Assembly: GCF_002087295.1 (NCBI RefSeq)
Contig: NZ_MWVI01000013.1
Location: 1 to 64,000 of the forward strand
From: Vreelandella lionensis
GTDB lineage: Bacteria; Pseudomonadota; Gammaproteobacteria; Pseudomonadales; Halomonadaceae
Reading direction: 5' to 3'
DNA length: 64,000 nt
Position 1 is the first letter of the stretch; each line of letters begins with the position of its first letter. This document shows, piece by piece, positions 41,494 to 60,697 of this stretch. The position numbers and the translations under genes are program-made. The notes beneath the pieces were generated by a model that saw only the letters and a list, made by a program, of their open reading frames with translations, did not search any database and had not been told where the DNA came from.

Positions 41494-42766
41494 TTGAGCG
41501 ACGACTTCCCCCTGGGGTTACTGTTCGGCCTGCTAGCCTTACTCATCCTGCTGTCTGCCTTCTTCTCTAGTTCTGAAACGGGCATGATGTCGATCAACCG
41601 CTATCGACTTAGCCACCAAGCCAACAGCGGCGACCGTAGCGCCAAGCGCGTGATGCGCTTGCTTACCCGCCCCGATCGACTCATTGGCGTATTCTGATTG
41701 GCAATAACTTCGTCAATAACTTGGCAGCCTCCATTGCCACGATTATTGCCATCCACTTTTTTGGCGATGTGTCCGGCCCGGCTATTTCCACCGCGCTGCT
41801 CACCATTACCATTCTGATTTTTGCGGAAGTGACGCCCAAAACCTACGCCGCTATTAAGCCTGAGCGCATTGCTTACCCCACCTCCTACGCCCTGGAGCCG
41901 CTGCTAAAGCTGCTTTACCCCTTGGCGTGGCTGGTCAATGTGATGTCTAACGGGCTGCTGCGACTGATTGGCGTGAAAAGCGTGGATAACGGCGGCGATA
42001 GCCTGATCCGTGATGAGCTGCGCACCGTGGTACATGAAGCGGGTACGCTGATTCCCTATCGCCACCGAGCCATGCTGCTGTCGATTCTGGATCTTGAGAA
42101 CGTGCGGGTGAACGACATCATGGTGCCCCGCCACGAAGTGTTGGGCATCGACCTGGACGACTCACTGGAAGATATTCTGACCCAGATCCGCACCAGCCAG
42201 CACACACGCCTGCCGGTCTATAAGGGCGATATCAACACATTATTGGTATGCTCCACCTGCGCAACGCGGCGCGCTTTTTATCCCGCAGCGAAGTCACTAA
42301 AGCGTCGATTGTGCAAGAGGCACGCGAGCCCTACTTCATTCCCGAATCCACACCGCTGCATACCCAGCTGCTGAATTTCCAGAAGCAGAAGCGGCGGATA
42401 GGCATCGAGGTGGATGAGTACGGCGATGTAGAGGGGCTGGTGACACTTGAGGATATTCGCGAAGAGATCGTCGGCGAGTTGACCACCGACGTTTCTGAAG
42501 ATGACGAGATTCACCAGCAGGATGATGGTAGCCATGTCATTGAAGGCACGGCTAACATTCGTGAGATCAATAAGATGCTGGGGTGGGAACTGCCGACCGA
42601 CGGCCCAAAGACGTTAAACGGGTTAATTCTTGAGCACTTAGAAGCTTTCCCAGAAGGTCCAGCCTGCCTGCAGATCGGCAACACACGGATGGAGATTCTG
42701 GAAATTCGCGATAACCTGATCACCTCAGCGCGCTGCTGGCAAAAGCTGCGCCTGGCCCGTCGCTAA
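41494..42766 (+). CDS. CNNM/CorC-type HlyC family transporter (frameshifted)
   Basis: An inner-membrane protein with an N-terminal DUF21 (CNNM) domain of four helices, with SAFFSSSETGMMSINRYRL and AEVTPKTYAAIKPE, then two CBS domains (VRVNDIMVPRHEVLGID and RTSQHTRLPVYKGD), then a C-terminal CorC_HlyC domain (GTANIREINKMLGWELP). It resembles E. coli YfjD, which neighbours ypjD and ffh, and a role in Mg/Co homeostasis is likely. The start is TTG 41494, eight bases after AAAGGAAC. One base is missing near 41695 and one near 42250. Corrected length is 424. Confidence 0.9.
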
Positions 42767-43443
42767 TCCTGCTGTCGCGGTTGGCAACGGGTGATCTCGC
42801 TATCGCCCGCGGCCTTCAATGCCCTAACCCGCTGCTCCAAGAAGCGCCTTAACGCCACACCCTCGACTTCATGCACTAAAATGGGCGGACCAAAGTGTAG
42901 GCTCACTGGCGCTCTAAACCGCGAAGGCCACTTCTTTAGTGCTTTGCCGCCGTAGTGGGAGGTCCGCGACCCCCAGAGCCCCGCCAAGCCTGCCGGAATT
43001 ACCGGCACGTTGTCTCGGGCGAGAATGGTTTCGAGCCCACGGCGAAAGGTATGAATGTCGCCATCTGGGGTTAAGCGCCCTTCCGGAAACACCATCACGA
43101 TATCGCCCTCACGCAGCGCCTTGCTCACTTCATCCAGGGTGCGCCGCAGCGCTCCCGGGCTATGGCGTTCCGATTCGATCGGAATCGCTCCGACCAGTTG
43201 AAACCACCACTTCAGCCAGCGGGATCCGAAGATGGGCTGATCCATCACAAACCGTAGCGGCCTAGGGCTTCCACCGCCCAGCACCAGTGCATCCATAAAG
43301 CTAACGTGGTTACAGACGACCAACGCAGCGCCCCGTTTGGGTACGTGCCCTTGGCCATGCACCGACAGCCGGTAGCAACCGCGCATGGCCACATAGATCA
43401 CGCGGCGCAGCAAGCAGCGGGTGGTTTTGATCCCCCATGTCAC
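42763..43443 (-). CDS. 1-acyl-sn-glycerol-3-phosphate acyltransferase (PlsC family)
   Basis: Transfers acyl groups to lysophosphatidate or related acceptors. The catalytic NHVSFMDALVLGG (H-x4-D), the FPEGRLTPDG block and PVIPAGLAGLWGSR are conserved. It has 226 residues. The GTG start at 43443 overlaps the TGA of the upstream tetR gene (GTGA), so both are one unit. Converges with the CorC gene, sharing four bases at the stops. The frame is intact. Confidence 0.88.
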   Translation of the reverse strand: MTWGIKTTRCLLRRVIYVAMRGCYRLSVHGQGHVPKRGAALVVCNHVSFMDALVLGGGSPRPLRFVMDQPIFGSRWLKWWFQLVGAIPIESERHSPGALRRTLDEVSKALREGDIVMVFPEGRLTPDGDIHTFRRGLETILARDNVPVIPAGLAGLWGSRTSHYGGKALKKWPSRFRAPVSLHFGPPILVHEVEGVALRRFLEQRVRALKAAGDSEITRCQPRQQD

Positions 43444-44054
43444 GTCACCGCCCCCCGGTGTCGCAACCCGGCCAGCACGGTGCTCATGAGTTGATCCAAT
43501 AGCTCATCGACTTTGAGTTGCTGCCCCTGCCAGTAGCCTAGCCGCTCGTTCAAGCCAAGCTGCACCAAGCCGTGAACGCTGCCCCACAAGGTACGGCCAA
43601 GGCGGCGTGCTTCTAGGTCATCCAGCGCAGGTTGATACTGCTTTAACGATGTCTCCACCTGGGTAAACAGGGCTTCAATCAGGTCGCTCTGGCGCTGGTC
43701 CAACTCCCCTTCCTGGGCGAGCGGGTAGTCAAACAGCAGCTGCCACCGGTAGCAGTCTTCCTCCGCAAACCGCCAATAGGCGTGTGCCAGGGAACGCAGC
43801 CACGGCCCCGGGGCATCCTCAGCCAGGCTGGTAATGGTATGCTGCAAACGTGCGAGGGTTTCGACGTTGACGTGCTGCAATAAATTATTAAAGCTGCCGT
43901 ATAGTTTTAGCAGCGTACTGGGCGCACAGCCCACCTCTCTGGCCAGTGCACGTAGTGATAAACCATAGACTGGCTGCTTAGCCAACCACTCATCACAAGC
44001 GTGCATGACCTGCGCGTGGAGGGCATCGGGCGCATGCTGTCTAGGACGGGCCAT
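43440..44054 (-). CDS. TetR family transcriptional regulator
   Basis: A protein of 204 residues. The N-terminal helix-turn-helix reads LSLRALAREVGCAPSTLLKLY (about residues 31-51), and the C-terminal ligand domain contains GSVHGLVQLGL, the WHG-type motif. It is co-translated with plsC, so membrane-lipid genes may be its targets. A 22-base inverted repeat 62 bases upstream of the start may be its operator. The ligand is unknown. The frame is intact. Confidence 0.85.
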   Translation of the reverse strand: MARPRQHAPDALHAQVMHACDEWLAKQPVYGLSLRALAREVGCAPSTLLKLYGSFNNLLQHVNVETLARLQHTITSLAEDAPGPWLRSLAHAYWRFAEEDCYRWQLLFDYPLAQEGELDQRQSDLIEALFTQVETSLKQYQPALDDLEARRLGRTLWGSVHGLVQLGLNERLGYWQGQQLKVDELLDQLMSTVLAGLRHRGAVT

Positions 44055-44137: not shown

Positions 44138-44243
44138 ACATCGAACACTGTTTTCGACACTAAAACGCGACATTTAACGTATTACTACTCCCCCTCGCCA
44201 TTTTGTATCAGCGCCGCAGGCATCGCGCATTAAGGAGATCGGC

Positions 44244-44931
44244 ATGACGGGACGCCTACACGTACAGCGCCTATCGCTCGCCCGCCTTGCGCCAGACCTA
44301 AAGAGCACCGAGCCACTAATTGAGTCGCCCAATCTAGCCCCGCGTCAACCAGTGTCGGCCTTCCGCCTTGAGCAGGGGCGATTAACGACCACCCCTCTTT
44401 TTTGGGGGCTGACGCCGCCGTGGCTCAAAGTGCTCGACCACGCTCCTCACTGCGCGCGAGCGGAAACGCTTAGCAAGCGGGCCATGTTTCATGAGGCGTT
44501 TAGCGCTCGACGGTGCGTAATTCCTGTCAGCGGCTTTTATATCTGGAAGCCGCAGGCGCGCAGTAAGCAGCCGTTTCTAGTCACCCAAGTGAATCGCGGC
44601 CCGCTGCTGCTCGGCGCGCTCTGGTGCCGTTACCACACAACTCTCACCACTTTTACCGATTCGACGGCGCTGATCAGCGTGCCTGCCAATGCCTGCCTGT
44701 CACCACTGACTGACCGTTTACCGGTGATTATTCCCCCGGAAGCGCTACATCAATGGTTAGACCCCAGCACTGAGCTTACGTCGCTAACACCACTATTGAT
44801 GCCGGCACCGCTGGAACTGTTGGGCGCTTTTCCGGTATCAAAGCATGTGAATAACCCTGCCTACCAGTCACCCTCTTGCGCGCACCCCACAGGGCCAATG
44901 CTGCGCTGGACCGTGTCACAGGAGCCCGTAA
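44244..44931 (+). CDS. Degenerate SRAP (YedK/HMCES-like) protein
   Basis: The fold of the SOS-response-associated peptidase family is clear: NLAPRQPVSAFR, LFWGLTPPW, ARAETLSKRAMFHEAFSARRC, IPVSGFYIWK, DRLPVIIPPEALHQWLD. Yet every catalytic residue is changed. The Cys2 of MCGR is Thr (MTGRL), the Asn before AR(A/S)ET is Cys, the Glu of GFYEW is Ile and the His of IHDRMPVI is Thr. It should not crosslink abasic sites; DNA binding may remain. As written the frame runs on into the following protease gene. Removing one C at 44925-44927 gives a TAA at 44929-44931 overlapping that gene's ATG. An AAGGAG site precedes the start. Confidence 0.8.
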
Positions 44932-47775
44932 TGTTGCCAACCATGTCTGCTATTCCGCCTCGCCTTCAGGCGCGGCGCGCCGTTTTTGGCCTAACCATCG
45001 GCCTGCTCTTGGCCCCTGCCCCTAGCCTTTGGGCGGAAGAGAGCCCGGTTGCCGAGGTCATCACACCCACAATCAGCCCCTTCGATGATCGCGACTACCG
45101 CGTGGTAACGCTCGATAATGGCCTACAGGCGCTGCTGGTCAGCGACCCCGATGCCGACAAGGCCGCTGCTTCCATGAACGTGCGGGTCGGCAGCGCCCAG
45201 GACCCAGACGACCTACAGGGGCTGGCGCACTTTTTGGAACATATGCTGTTCTTGGTCACCGAGCCCTATCCACAATCGGATGCTTACCAGCAATATATTT
45301 CCGACAATGCAGGCTCCCACAACGCCTTTACTGCCCAGCAGGACACCAACTACTTTTTCGATATTGAGCCTTCAGCGCTGCCTGGCGCATTAGATCGCTT
45401 TAGCGAGTTTTTCCTCTCGCCGCTGTTTAATGCTGATCACCTAGAGAGCGAGCGCAATATCGTTCATTCCGAGTATATGGCGCGTATTCGCGATGAATCA
45501 CGCCGCGAGAACGATGTGCTAAACCAGTTGCTCAACCCTGACAATCCCACTACAGGGTTTGCGGTGGGCAGCCGAGACACGCTGGCCAACCCAGAAGGCG
45601 AGGCAACGCTGCGCGAGCGGGTGATCGAGTTCTACCACCGCTACTACGATGCCAACGTCATGAACCTGACGATTGTGGCTCCGCAACCGCTGGACACCTT
45701 GGAAGAGCTAGTAATCGAGCGCTTTGCCGACATTCCTGATAATGACCTAAGCGCCCCCACCATTGATGCGCCGCTGATCGACCCCGACACGCTGCCGCGC
45801 TACGTAGAGCGACAATCGCTGCAGGATCGTCGCCAACACTGCGTTTCTATTTCCCTGTTCCTGACCCTACCGACGAGTATCGCACCAAGCCAACTCAGCT
45901 CATCGCGCATTTACTGGGCGATGAGGGTGATGGCAGCTTGCTGTCGGTACTGCGTGAGTCAGGCTTGGCCGACGGGCTCTCCGCAGGTGTGGGCCGTGGC
46001 GATGGTAACGAAGCGCTGTTTACCATTTCCATCAGCCTCACTCCGGCGGGCGCCGAACGCCTGGACGATATCGAAGCGTCGCTGTTTGCCGCCATTGAGC
46101 AAATACGCGACACAGGCCTAGCCGAATGGCGCTATGACGAGCAGAAAAGCCTTAGCGAGCAGGCATTTCGCTTTCAGCAGCACGGCGCTCCTCAGCAAGA
46201 GGCCACCCGCCTAGCCATGAGCCTCTCCCGCTACCCGGTCGAGGACGTGCAGTACGCCGCGTACCGGATGGACGGCATGGACAGTGAGCGCCAGCAGCGC
46301 TACTTGGACGCGCTGACTCAGGACAACATGCTACGTTTTTACTCTGCCCCGGATGTCGAAAGCGACACCATATCGCCGCGTGGTTTAACACCCAGTGGAA
46401 AGAGCAGTCGCCGACCACCACCGGTCAGGCGCTGAGCGGCTTAGCCTTACCAGAACCTAACCCCTTTATTGCCAGCGACCTCACCCTTCAGGGAGGCCAG
46501 GATGAGCAGCCTACTGCCTTGATCGAGACGCCTACGTTTACCGCTTGGCACATGCCGGACAGCCGTTTTAATACGCCCAGCGTCGAGTGGCGGGTGAGCT
46601 TGCAGCATCCCAGCGCCAGCTACTCGGTGGAAGAAGCGGTACTCACGCGCTTGCTGGCAGGCTGGCTAAACGACAGCCTTAATGAGTCGCTCTACCCCGC
46701 GTGGATCGCCGGGCAGTCGTTTAGCGCTTACGCCCATGCGCGCGGTATGACGCTGTCGTTTTCTGGCTGGCGTGATGGCCAAACACCGCTGATCGAGCAA
46801 GCCCTTGAACAGCTTCAGCAGGCGGATATCTCTACCGGTGCGTTTGAGCGGGTGCGCTATCAGCTACAGCGGGAGTGGCGCAACGCCCCTCAAGCGTCGT
46901 TGACGGGTCAGGCAAGCCGCGCACTAGGTGAAGCGCTACTGACGCCGCAGTGGTCCACTGCTGAACTACTGGAAGCGAGCCAGCGGCTAGAGAAGCGCCA
47001 TTTGGAGAATTTCCGTCAGCGCTTCTTGGATGATTTGTACATCGACGCCATGGCGGTGGGCAACCTGAACGCCGAGCAGGCGCAGGAACAGGCCAATCTG
47101 ATTCGCGGTGCGCTTACGCCACGTTTGACACGCAACGACATTCCGCCGCTGACACCGCTGGAAGTCAGTGATGAGTCAGAAATACTGCATCCTCACAGTA
47201 CCCGCGAAGAGTCGCTGGTGCTGCGTTATCTGCAGGGGCGCGATACCAGCGTTGAGGAGCAAGCTCGCTTGAGCGTGCTGGCCCAGTGGCTGGACACAAC
47301 GTTTTACCAGCAGCTACGCACCGAAGAGCAGCTTGGCTACATCGTTAATGCGGGTTATTCGCCGCTGCTGGAAGCCCCCGGTATTGGTCTGATCGTGCAG
47401 TCGCCGGACGTGGACAGCGGTACGATTGCCGAGCGCATAGATGCCTTTATGAACGACGCGAAAACGCGTCTTAATGCGCTGAGCGATGAGGAACTAGCGG
47501 CCCATCGCCAAGCAGTCCATGACCGCCTGAACCAGCGGGACACTAGCCTGCCGAGCATGGCCAACCGCTATTGGCAGGCCACCGCGCTAGATGAGGTACG
47601 CTTTGACCGTCGCGAGCAGATCGCTGAGCTGGCGCTGGATGTCAGCGTTGAAGAGTTGCAGGCGCTGTGGCCTGCGCTGCTTTCACACCAGTTAGATATT
47701 CGCTTCAACCCCGGCGACTCGCCCAGCGATATCGCCGTCTACCGTGAGGCGCGCACGCCGTTCGACGCGCGCTAG
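44931..47775 (+). CDS. Periplasmic M16 zinc metalloprotease, pitrilysin-like (frameshifted)
   Basis: An insulinase-family protease. Residues 1-40 form a signal peptide (RRAVFGLTIGLLLAPAPSLWA). The inverted zinc motif HFLEH lies in GLAHFLEHMLF, with the third ligand Glu about 75 residues on (ESERNIVHSEY). The C-terminal inactive half has EEQLGYIVNAGYSP. Frame breaks occur near 45830 and 46370-46440. Corrected length is about 948, as in E. coli protease III. The next residue after LEHMLFL is Val rather than Gly, possibly an error. The ATG at 44931 follows CAGGAG by six bases and overlaps the SRAP stop. Confidence 0.88.
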
Positions 47776-47788
47776 CCCCATCGCCAGC

Positions 47789-49280
47789 TCAGGCATCAAA
47801 TGCCTGGGCTGGCATCATAGCCTCAACAAACATCACCAACTCTTCGAGTATCTGGCGCTCTCGGTCTGTTAGCGTTTGCTGATTATAACGCTCGATTTCC
47901 CGAGCAAATGCCTTGAGCGTAAAGCCTGATAGTGCCGGGTCATTCATGCGCATCCAACGAAACGCCTCCCACTGCTCTCGCTCCTCGCCCTCTAAGGTGT
48001 CGGGGTAGCTGCGGGCGCGAAAGCGAAACAGCATCTCTTCCAGGCGTGGGTCTTGAAAGGCGAAGCGCTGCCCCACTAAGTCCCAGGGGTCCATGGCCAG
48101 CACTCGCTCCATCTGCTGACGGTCAGCGGCAGAGAAAAAACTGCCGGAGTAGAGCATTAAGTCAGGGTCTTGAGGCGACTCTTCGTAGCCGCCACTGAAC
48201 ACCTCGGCCACCTTCTGCGCTACACCGCTAGCCTCACGTAGGGTTTTCCAGTGCCCTCGGCAGGCGGCAATATCGATGCCCAGACGCGCGACAATCGCGC
48301 CGTACTCAGCTTTCTGCTCGCCCTCAACATCTTTCAACACCGTGGCTGGAAAGATTACCGGGCAGCGGTTGATATGAATGACTTTGAGCGGAATGCGCGC
48401 TTCTCCTTCAGAAAGATCCTGCTGGCTGACGAACACCCGCTCACGAATCTGCTCGGCGCTGAGCGACAGTAAATCGCCGGGGTCGACGCTTAAATCGTAA
48501 ACGATCACCCCGTTAGGGTTCGTGGGGTGCTCCGCCAGCGGCATCACCAGCGCGCTGCAGCCTCGGCTGGCAGGATAGCGGCGGGGAATATGCAGCAGCG
48601 GCTTGGCGCTGGGCAGGTCCAGCTGCTTGGCCACCGCGCGCTTGCCGCGCAGGCCAAGCAGGAATCGAACAGTTTAGGGTTTCGCGCTTTCAACAGCCGC
48701 GCCAGCGCGATGGTAGGGCGCACATCTGCCACCGCGTCGTGGGCGCCCTCATGGGCAATGCCGTTCGCAGCGGTGAGGTGTTCCAGTTTAAAGCTGGGAG
48801 CACCATCTTCCCGCAGCGGCCACTCAATACCCTCTGGGCGCAGCGCATAGAACGCCCGTACCACGTCGATCAAATCCCAGCGGGAGTTGACGTTTTGCCA
48901 CTCGCGGGCATAGGGATCAAGCAGGTTGCGATAAAACAGATGGCGGGAGACTTCATCATCAAAACGCAGGCTGTTGTAGCCTGCCACGCAGGTGCCGGGC
49001 TCGCTCATGGCGCTCTGCACCTGACGGGCAAACTCGGCTTCGGGAAGCCCACGACGCTGCGCTTTTTGAGGCGTGATGCCGGTAATCAGGCAGGCGGCGG
49101 GGTGCGGCAGGTAATCATCGGCGGGGTTACGTACAGCTCGATAGGGTCGCCGATTTCATTGAGGTCGGCATCGGTGCGTAATGCAGCAAACTGAGCGGGC
49201 CGATCGCGACGCGGATCGGCACCAAAGGTCTCATAATCGTGCCAGAGAAAACTGGCAGGGGCGGCATTCGGTGGCGCCAT
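47789..49280 (-). CDS. sbcB: Exodeoxyribonuclease I (frameshifted)
   Basis: Degrades single-stranded DNA 3' to 5'. The DEDDh catalytic motifs are in SFLWHDYETFGADPRRDRPAQ-like start (D-x-E), CVAGYNSLRFDDEV (second Asp) and GAHDAVADVRPT (His and Asp). The C-terminal SH3-like and helical domains (from about 48630) follow. Frame breaks lie near 49120 and 48660. Two restored bases give 497 residues. A hairpin at 47784-47812 covers its stop and faces the convergent M16 gene. Confidence 0.92.
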
Positions 49281-59066: not shown

Positions 59067-59894
59067 ATGGTAGAAGTACCACTCACTTGGCAGTTAGCAA
59101 AGCTGGGGCTCTCCGTCAGCATGGTTTTGGGCTTAAGCGCTATCGCTGTCCGTGCTAGCCCGCGTATTGCAGGACTACTCTCAGGTTATCCTTTAGGAAC
59201 CGCACTAGCGCTGTTTTTTATCGGTCTAGAGATCTCGCCCGCCTTCGCTACCCAGAGCGCCGTGCATACGCTAGCCGGGTTTACCGCGACAATGGCATTG
59301 GGGGCAGGTTATGTGGTCACAGGCCGCCAGCCTGGCATCAAGGGCGTTATTAGCGGTGTGCTGGGAGGCTTTGCCGCGTGGCTGGTCATGAGCACCCTGC
59401 TGGCGCAATTCAGCTTCACCCGCTTCAGCGGCACGCTAGTAACGCTTTGTGCCATTGGCGTTTTCAGTTGGCTGTTCCGCTCCATTCCCGATGTGAAGAG
59501 TACCGCGAGCAGCGCCTTTTCTTGGCTCGCGCTAGCGGCACGCGCGGGGCTTGCCACTGTTATTATTTTTGCTATCACCCGTATCGCCCACTGGCTCCCC
59601 CCAGAGTGGGCAGGCACGCTGGCTGCATTTCCCGTCACCATGCTGCCATTTTTGCTAATCCTGCACGTGGGGCATGGGTATGCCCCCGTCGCCACAGTCA
59701 TTAAGCATTATCCCATGGGCCTTGGCTCGCTGCTGAGCTATACCCTATGCGTTTCATACACTTACAGCACGCTGGGGCTTTTCTGGGGAACGCTGGCAGG
59801 ATTTCTCGCCGCGACCCTATGGCTGCTTGGCTGGATGCAGTTCACTGCTTGGCAACAGCGCCGTAACGCTGGACCAAGCGCTCGCTTGGGTTAA
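59067..59894 (+). CDS. Multispan membrane protein with internal repeat
   Basis: A protein of 275 residues with eight or nine hydrophobic helices and no soluble domain. Residues 35-54 (AGLLSGYPLGTALALFFIGL) and 183-200 (AGTLAAFPVTMLPFLLIL) share the pattern AG-x-L-small-small-aromatic-P and lie about 148 residues apart, which suggests duplication of a four-helix half. This is common in transporters. I cannot name the family. An AAGGAAA site precedes the start. It precedes a thioesterase gene with a 52-base gap. The frame is intact. Confidence 0.7.
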   Translation: MVEVPLTWQLAKLGLSVSMVLGLSAIAVRASPRIAGLLSGYPLGTALALFFIGLEISPAFATQSAVHTLAGFTATMALGAGYVVTGRQPGIKGVISGVLGGFAAWLVMSTLLAQFSFTRFSGTLVTLCAIGVFSWLFRSIPDVKSTASSAFSWLALAARAGLATVIIFAITRIAHWLPPEWAGTLAAFPVTMLPFLLILHVGHGYAPVATVIKHYPMGLGSLLSYTLCVSYTYSTLGLFWGTLAGFLAATLWLLGWMQFTAWQQRRNAGPSARLG

Positions 59895-59946
59895 TTCTGG
59901 GAGGGTTCTTACCTCCCTCGTTCCCTCTAATAATAAGGATAGCGCT

Positions 59947-60354
59947 ATGTTCACTCGCACCATTGAGCCCGCTTTTTACGATACGGATGCCCTTGGCCAT
60001 ATTAATAACACGCGGCTCCCCGCTTGGTTTGAGCTGGCACGCAACGACCTGTTCAAACTGTTTACGCCCGACCTGAACCCTAAACAGTGGCGATTAATCA
60101 TGGCGCGCATGGAAGTGGATTACCGCGCTGAACTGTTTTACGGCCATGACATCGAAATCCGTACCTATCTAACCCGTTTGGGCAACAGCTCGTTTACCGT
60201 CACCCAGGAAGCGCGGCAGCATTGTACGCTGACCAACTAAGGGCATACGGTAATGGTGCAGTCCACCCATCAGGAGAAGCGCGCCGTTCCTATTGAGGGT
60301 GAGCTGCGCGAGGCGCTGACAGCACATTTGGATACCGCGCCCGCCTCCTCTTAA
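59947..60354 (+). CDS. Acyl-CoA thioesterase, hotdog fold, with an internal stop
   Basis: A 4HBT-domain protein of about 135 residues. FYDTDALGHINNTRLPAWFE carries the catalytic Asp region. The codon at 60238-60240 is TAA, whereas the reading frame remains open on both sides and continues as GHTVMVQSTHQEKRAVPIEG to a second TAA at 60352-60354. The context N-x-GHTVMVQ implies Lys (AAA) at that position, so one A-to-T change made the stop. A second, distinct thioesterase lies at 3915-4352. Confidence 0.8.
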
Positions 60355-60394
60355 TTCCCCCTGCCATATATGGTGGGGCCTTCCAGGAGTCACC

Positions 60395-60697
60395 ATGGCT
60401 ATTCGCTATAATCTCTGGAGTGATCCTGACAACACGGCGCAGCACCGCGCCGTGGAAGCCGACCTTGAACGCTACTTCATGGAGCGCTTCGCTGATTACC
60501 CGCATATCCGCTTGTTCGGCGCAGACCCCTACGATTATGATGCCCCATTCAATCGACTTTACGACGTGCTAATGGCCCGCGCAGCTGAGTATTGCGAGGA
60601 GAAATGGCGCTATGTCGCTTCTCCAGAACAGCTCAATCGCTGTTTTTTCCGCGCCGTTGGCCGCTCAAATAAATTTGTCCAAGACGACCGAAAGTGA
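60395..60697 (+). CDS. Conserved hypothetical protein
   Basis: A protein of 100 residues, soluble and rich in Tyr, Asp and Arg (NLWSDPDNTAQHRAVEADLE; ADPYDYDAPFNRLYDVLM). No signal peptide and no known motif. It follows the thioesterase and precedes the DUF501 gene by 12 bases, so the two are probably co-transcribed. The frame is intact. I do not recognise the family. Confidence 0.7.
   Translation: MAIRYNLWSDPDNTAQHRAVEADLERYFMERFADYPHIRLFGADPYDYDAPFNRLYDVLMARAAEYCEEKWRYVASPEQLNRCFFRAVGRSNKFVQDDRK

Follow-up and report, generated by a model that had tools for sequence, protein, structure and literature searches.

Results

Gene content of the locus

The window analyzed here, a stretch of 64,000 nucleotides from contig NZ_MWVI01000013.1 of Vreelandella lionensis, contains a gene for an SRAP-domain protein that does not carry cysteine as its second residue (Table 1). 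The product begins with MTGRLHVQRL and scored 140.3 bits against the Pfam SRAP domain (PF02586), above the curated cut-off of 27.1 bits. The gene is directly followed by that of a pitrilysin-like M16 metalloprotease, for which the domains PF00675, PF05193, PF16187 and PF22456 were found on two ORF pieces and the HxxEH zinc motif reads HFLEH in the translation. Beyond the protease lies a gene for exonuclease I, which matched Exonuc_X-T_C (PF08411) with 286.7 bits. On the other side, the SRAP gene is preceded by a TetR-type regulator gene and a gene for a PlsC-type acyltransferase.

Table 1. Features of the locus, with positions in the window.
Feature	Position	Strand	Remark
PlsC-type acyltransferase gene, adjoins the TetR gene	42763..43443	-	ORF translation and Pfam
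TetR-type regulator gene, divergent	43440..44054	-	ORF translation and Pfam
Conserved element AACACTGTTTTCGACAC	44144..44160	+	proposed TetR operator, 100 nt ahead of the SRAP start
Cys-less SRAP gene, about 229 aa	44244..44931	+	frame continues into the M16 gene without a stop in the assembly
Thr2 (YedK Cys2), codon ACG in ATG ACG GGA	44247..44249	+	alignment with E. coli MG1655 YedK
Arg4 (YedK Arg4)	44253..44255	+	122/122 in the family; GR required by the start finder, thus partly by construction
Cys70 (YedK Asn75), codon TGC	44451..44453	+	profile alignment to solved YedK chains
Arg72 (YedK Arg77)	44457..44459	+	121/122 in the family
Ile100 (YedK Glu105), codon ATC	44541..44543	+	profile alignment to solved YedK chains
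Thr156 (YedK His160), codon ACT	44709..44711	+	profile alignment to solved YedK chains
Arg158 (YedK Arg162)	44715..44717	+	122/122 in the family
Pitrilysin-like M16 metalloprotease gene, HFLEH motif	44931..47775	+	signal peptide judged by eye; frame broken in the assembly
Exonuclease I gene (sbcB), convergent	47789..49020	-	pieces 47789-48634 (Exonuc_X-T_C) and 48544-49020 (reading only)

The original prediction had let the SRAP frame end at 44931. In the assembly, it does not end there, but runs on into the protease gene as an ORF of 625 aa. In the 35 other orthologues of the genus, a stop codon precedes or overlaps the protease start, and in many orthologues of the genus it lies inside a TAATG or TGATG stop-start overlap. 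Because of these stops, and because the window's protease and exonuclease I genes have broken frames too, the continuation of the frame is probably due to an assembly error in a short run of C; a real two-domain SRAP-M16 fusion was considered and rejected in view of the same 35 orthologues. The window genes for the M16 protease and exonuclease I are split into several frames, while the M16 gene occupies a single frame in nearly all relatives, and the broken frames are signs of indel errors in the window assembly. The genome also encodes a second SRAP of canonical type (L054, contig 14, about 59871-60489), which is likewise split by a frameshift in the assembly and whose two parts together show Cys2, Asn, Glu and His.

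Exchange of the catalytic residues and retention of pocket residues

Equivalences with YedK were taken from a profile alignment to solved YedK chains and from an alignment with YedK of E. coli MG1655. They bore out the claim that the window protein is an SRAP protein from which all four catalytic residues have been lost, with Thr2, Cys70, Ile100 and Thr156 in the places of Cys2, Asn75, Glu105 and His160. That sequencing noise is not the cause, as had also been proposed, was verified in the genus: 36 of 37 genomes contain a full-length orthologue, and Cys2, Glu105 and His160 occur in none of them, while Asn75 is kept in two (L016 and L018).

For the wider comparison, 145 family loci yielded 143 proteins after two broken frames had been dropped, and 122 of these were distinct; the underlying collections overlap, and the number refers to distinct proteins and not to distinct genomes. 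The 80 named loci that were kept of 165 confirmed ones belong to Vreelandella, Halomonas, Halovibrio, Modicisalibacter and Litchfieldella, and the family is therefore taken to be Halomonadaceae. Residue 2 was Thr in 68, Ala in 43, Ser in 8 and Pro in 3 of the distinct proteins. A search for relatives with an intact catalytic set at this locus left the original prediction standing, with Cys2 present in 0 of 122. Glu105 is retained in six proteins and His160 in one. At the position of Asn75, a column that was gapped for the family in the first alignment, such that the residue preceding YedK Ala76 was used afterwards, Cys was found in 103 and Asn in 3 of 122 proteins, the others having Ile, Val, Ser, Leu, Ala, Met or Thr. 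The predicted Asn-to-Cys exchange is thus correct for the window protein and not universal. Cys70 was also considered as a relocated nucleophile and set aside, as the position varies and Ala2 occurs in 3 of the 36 orthologues of the genus.

The remainder of the pocket is well conserved. All 122 proteins keep G3, R4, N37, P40, W106 and R162, the counts for G3 and R4 being partly by construction since the start was picked by a motif that includes both (only two broken loci failed the motif). R77 and W67 are kept in 121, and position 149 is Thr or Ser in 121. Some canonical proteins have Lys in place of R77, and one family member has Pro. Of the characteristics of YedK/HMCES-type proteins, the family therefore has the three arginines R4, R77 and R162 together with N37, P40 and W106 (121-122 of 122), and the window protein has neither Cys2 nor the active-site Asn, Glu and His. 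In 88 canonical rows, seventeen YedK columns reach a conservation of 90% or more. The family has lost the four catalytic columns among them; of the 13 others, 12 persist in no fewer than 114 of 122 proteins, and the thirteenth is Ala129 (Ala in 70, Gly in 52). The canonical rows were selected for having the four residues, and it is the retention side of this comparison that is informative. R77 and N37 lie outside the 17 columns, with 76 of 88 canonical rows each (below 90%). About two dozen further columns are at least 90% conserved in the family and agree in less than 40% of the canonical rows; these would also be accounted for by a change of ligand or partner. The three arginines presumably contact DNA, an assumption based in part on a published prediction (PMC3765255), and may serve folding instead.

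The six distinct proteins with Glu105 (L171, L172 and L176-L179) all come from genus g37 and have Thr or Pro as residue 2. Judged by their residues, they might be natural counterparts of the YedK C2A and C2S mutants and could still be AP lyases.

An AlphaFold2 model built from 29 sequences reached a pLDDT of 69.3 and a pTM of 0.76, i.e. only moderate confidence. All 20 PDB matches of the model at E≤0.001 were SRAP-type structures, including DNA complexes of YedK and HMCES, which argues for an SRAP fold as predicted by the model. Among the top matches were 6kbz (YedK with abasic-site DNA, 2e-12) and the Schiff-base complex of YedK C2A (8d2m).

Distribution, selection and descent

An SRAP match was found in 37 of 37 genomes of the genus, the window genome included; in the one that does not contribute a full-length orthologue (G016), the gene is frameshifted. 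Of the 275 family genomes, 272 contain a match to a profile of the 36 orthologues, one of these matches (G275) being a 69-aa fragment. Full-length matches in divergent genera scored at least 142 bits, and matches outside the family at most 133 bits. By comparison, any SRAP at all was present in 123 of 369 class-level genomes. No SRAP was found in three family genomes (G062, G199 and G229), two of which still contain exonuclease I. The Cys-less SRAP is regarded as a vertically inherited and near-universal halomonad protein. An origin from phages or plasmids was rejected: 48 pattern matches in viral contigs yielded no confirmed relative, and the SRAPs in 1527 plasmid and 48 phage records all had less than 60% identity at their best places.

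The dN/dS values of the window gene with five relatives were 0.064-0.077, and over 2264 family pairs with dS of 0.1-1.5, the median was 0.23 and the maximum 0.60. These values are far below 1 and therefore indicate purifying selection.

In an IQ-TREE tree with 122 rows, including 46 family rows, the family formed one clade (100/97) with genome G374 of family f37 (L200), which is a long branch with the states A2/T75/D105/S160. The f21 branch (11 rows, 99/75) and then the f8 branch (2 rows, 98/67) join next, these two deeper joins not being starred in the tree. The f8 proteins keep Cys2 and Asn75, have Asp105 and have lost His160. The f21 proteins keep Glu105, have Cys2 in 6 of 11 rows and have lost Asn75 and His160. 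Within the family outside g37, Asn75 is kept in three proteins and His160 in one, and the others have none of the four residues. The partial losses in relatives of the order suggest that the catalytic residues were eroded stepwise. The loss of Cys2 in f21 looks separate: in the group M[CST][GS]RYALFRW (L208, L268 and L273-L275), residue 2 is Ser or Thr in 5 of the 11 rows. Elsewhere in the class, an SRAP with Leu2, Thr105, Cys160 and a retained Asn75 was noticed (L247:973-1644).

A single clade of the family with nine canonical halomonad copies was rejected (p-AU 4.8e-10), and the gene is therefore no recent duplicate of an active copy. A single SRAP match at E≤0.001 was counted in 153 of the 275 family genomes; the counts were transcribed by hand, and frameshifted copies can enter them twice. 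The single match is assumed to be the Cys-less orthologue because nearly every family genome strongly matches the profile. The second, active copy that had been anticipated has a counterpart in the frameshifted gene on contig 14 of the window genome and appears to have none in those 153 genomes. Four genomes (G102, G111, G123 and G125) have 6-8 SRAP matches each on several contigs, some of them full-length and canonical-scoring.

Adjacent protease gene and the upstream region

The M16 gene lies directly 3' of the SRAP gene in each of the 80 named loci and in 28 of 29 loci from divergent genera. The pair is therefore found in 108 of 109 family loci, and also in one genome from a different family within the order. 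This confirms the proposed position in front of a protease, the periplasmic nature of which was read by eye from its N-terminus; judged in this way, the protease looks exported, and the SRAP protein is presumably cytoplasmic. With protease starts picked mechanically, an overlap of the two genes was seen in 51 loci out of 80 and a spacing of 0-46 nt in 28, and no start was found in one. In the exceptional genome (G184, L293), the locus has no M16 gene, and the gene for the Cys-less SRAP lies directly next to that of exonuclease I. None of the four f21 and f8 loci tested (L208, L026, L212 and L012) contained an M16 match. An acyltransferase-domain gene is located near several f21 loci and the f8 locus L212 (by Pfam for L272 and L212, by reading for the others).

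Of the 80 named loci, 74 have convergent exonuclease I beyond the protease. Five of the six without it (L083, L127, L128, L134 and L139) are truncated by a contig end, and one (L119) is unexplained. Exonuclease I was also present in 13 of 13 wider loci, 12 from the family and that of G374. The adjacency may reflect inertia. Any functional tie of the SRAP protein to exonuclease I or to the protease would be putative, the link being one of position only.

The divergent TetR gene accompanies 80 of 80 named loci and 15 of 29 loci of divergent genera. The 14 loci without it belong to the genera g35, g37 and g44, and for some of them little upstream DNA was available; in one g37 locus (L289), the SRAP gene is preceded by a gene for a GGDEF protein. 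Between the TetR gene and the SRAP-M16 operon, an element of the form AACA[CG]TGTTTTCGA was found, in which the core AACA-N-TGTT is palindromic. A 17-mer beginning AACACTGTTTTCGA occurred with at most three mismatches in 113 of 143 upstream regions and in 0 of 143 when each region was replaced by one letter-shuffle; in the 14 loci without a TetR match (L171-L184), it was found at six or more mismatches. The element is accordingly regarded as a candidate TetR operator. Another palindrome upstream of the window gene, AAGGTAT-N8-ATACCTT, recurs exactly in 2 of 80 loci (L066 and L067) and with one mismatch in about a dozen more.

Regulation by the SOS system was considered and rejected. The LexA consensus with at most one mismatch was present in 8 of 143 upstream regions versus 16 of 143 shuffled ones, and the SOS-linked SRAP neighbors umuDC, imuB/dnaE2 and dinB are absent among the adjoining genes (TetR, PlsC, M16 and exonuclease I).

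Discussion

A survey of 2013 described the cysteine at the second position of SRAP proteins as 'absolutely conserved' (PMC3765255). As reported in PMC9436759, YedK without the Cys2 thiol forms no stable cross-link, Glu105 is second in importance only to Cys2, and exchange of Asn75 for Ala has no more than a modest effect at an internal AP site. It is also reported there that the C2A and C2S variants yield a borohydride-trappable Schiff base and DNA lyase products, and that the lyase activity of C2A E105Q is 25-fold slower than that of C2A. Stable cross-linking by the window protein is very unlikely, because it contains none of Cys2, Asn75, Glu105 and His160.

We consider the chances about even that the protein is a non-covalent SRAP: it would bind single-stranded, abasic or 3'-end DNA reversibly and form no thiazolidine cross-link. 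The fold and the arginine-lined pocket would still accommodate a 3' end, an abasic site or kinked single-stranded DNA, and the bound DNA would be held or flagged without suicide chemistry. The kept arginines, Asn37, Pro40 and Trp106 appear to fit a protein that holds DNA without a bond, and the abasic-site or ssDNA reader of the original prediction is possible. The reading builds on the lost and the kept residues, the purifying selection, the distribution in the family compared with the class, the SRAP-type PDB matches and the exonuclease I gene beyond the protease; DNA binding, a role at 3' ends and a role as a DNA reader are all putative. Against DNA reading, the pocket residues might have been kept for folding, R77 is not invariant, the confidence of the model is moderate, and many columns are conserved in the family and not in canonical SRAPs, as would be expected with a new ligand. 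The genomic context does not point clearly to DNA, because LexA boxes are not enriched, a TetR gene is mostly adjacent and the protease looks exported.

The same context feeds an alternative that we regard as tentative and rather improbable, namely that the pocket now serves a protein or a small molecule as its partner, within an envelope or protease pathway under TetR control, and has ceased to have DNA as its ligand. It would account for the near-invariant protease neighbor with its frequent overlap, for the divergent regulator and conserved upstream element in most loci together with the LexA result, and for the columns conserved in the family only. It accords less well with the retained pocket arginines, N37, P40 and W106, with the genome that keeps the SRAP gene although M16 is gone from the locus, and with the presumably different compartments of the two proteins. 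A further possibility, which we judge unlikely, leaves the protein some chemistry: once Met is gone, the amine of Thr, Ala, Ser or Pro2 could form a transient Schiff base with AP sites, resulting in a reversible trap or a slow AP lyase. Met is normally removed before each of these four residues, such that the pocket would contain a free amine. No other residue occurs at position 2 in the 122 proteins, and the family rows of the tree show five changes there. The adducts and products obtained with YedK C2A and C2S speak for such chemistry, and it would be likeliest, in a weak and reversible form, in the g37 proteins with Glu105. However, 116 of 122 proteins are without Glu105, the exchange of which slowed the YedK C2A lyase, and residue 2 is variable, unlike what would be expected of a catalytic residue.

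The original prediction had also proposed a regulator of the active copy, and a dominant-negative effect would be related to this. The canonical-type gene on contig 14 would offer a target in the window genome; however, the family genomes with a single SRAP match contradict this as a general role, and the rejection of a common clade with the canonical copies further argues against it, such that we consider it highly improbable. A pseudogene or an assembly artefact is hardly credible. The broken frames of the neighboring genes and the entry of the SRAP frame into M16 might have raised this suspicion, which is contradicted by the full-length orthologues in 36 of 37 genomes of the genus and by the low dN/dS values.

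In its widest form, the reading as a reversible DNA-binding SRAP would mean that this lineage gave up suicide cross-linking and instead recognizes single-stranded DNA that is damaged or has a 3' end in a reversible manner, with nothing but the buried N-terminal amine and the arginine pocket. The protein would then be a standing non-covalent counterpart of HMCES, encoded by a halomonad core gene that was kept near exonuclease I and coupled to the pitrilysin gene. We put this forward as a speculative proposal that is more probably wrong than right. A description of the Cys-less family was not found in the literature searched, which included parts of PMC3765255, PMC9436759, PMC8041192 and PMC11078745, and a search of PMC10250235 for five residue names gave no match. 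A near-universal Cys-less branch under selection represents natural separation-of-function proteins and allows roles of SRAP proteins other than cross-linking to be tested, and the relatives with partial losses show which residues are dispensable while the protein stays. The label 'SOS response-associated peptidase', when given on a domain match alone, would be misleading about the chemistry of this family. By homology, the window protein belongs to the SRAP superfamily, and it should not be filed as a cross-linking enzyme of the YedK/HMCES type.

Comparison with known SRAP proteins

E. coli YedK is the best fold match of the window protein and shares with it the Pfam SRAP domain as well as R4, N37, P40, R77, W106 and R162, whereas the four catalytic residues differ. 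The genes also have different neighbors, namely yedF and yedL in the case of YedK, and the M16 protease, exonuclease I and TetR genes in the window. With the SRAP domain of human HMCES, the window protein has the fold class in common (5ko9, 6oeb and others). SRAP proteins, and HMCES at AP sites, are described as suicide enzymes (PMC8041192), whereas the window protein does not contain the Cys2 nucleophile. The YedK mutants C2A (8d2m) and C2S resemble it in having a small residue other than Cys at position 2 and an expected free N-terminal amine. They differ in that they keep Asn75, Glu105 and His160, of which the window protein has none and the g37 proteins have Glu105. The partly eroded SRAPs of f21, f8 and f37 (G374) occupy neighboring branches of the tree and have likewise lost His160; in contrast to the window protein, the f21 proteins have retained Glu105 and, in six rows, Cys2, and the two f8 proteins have retained Cys2 and Asn75.
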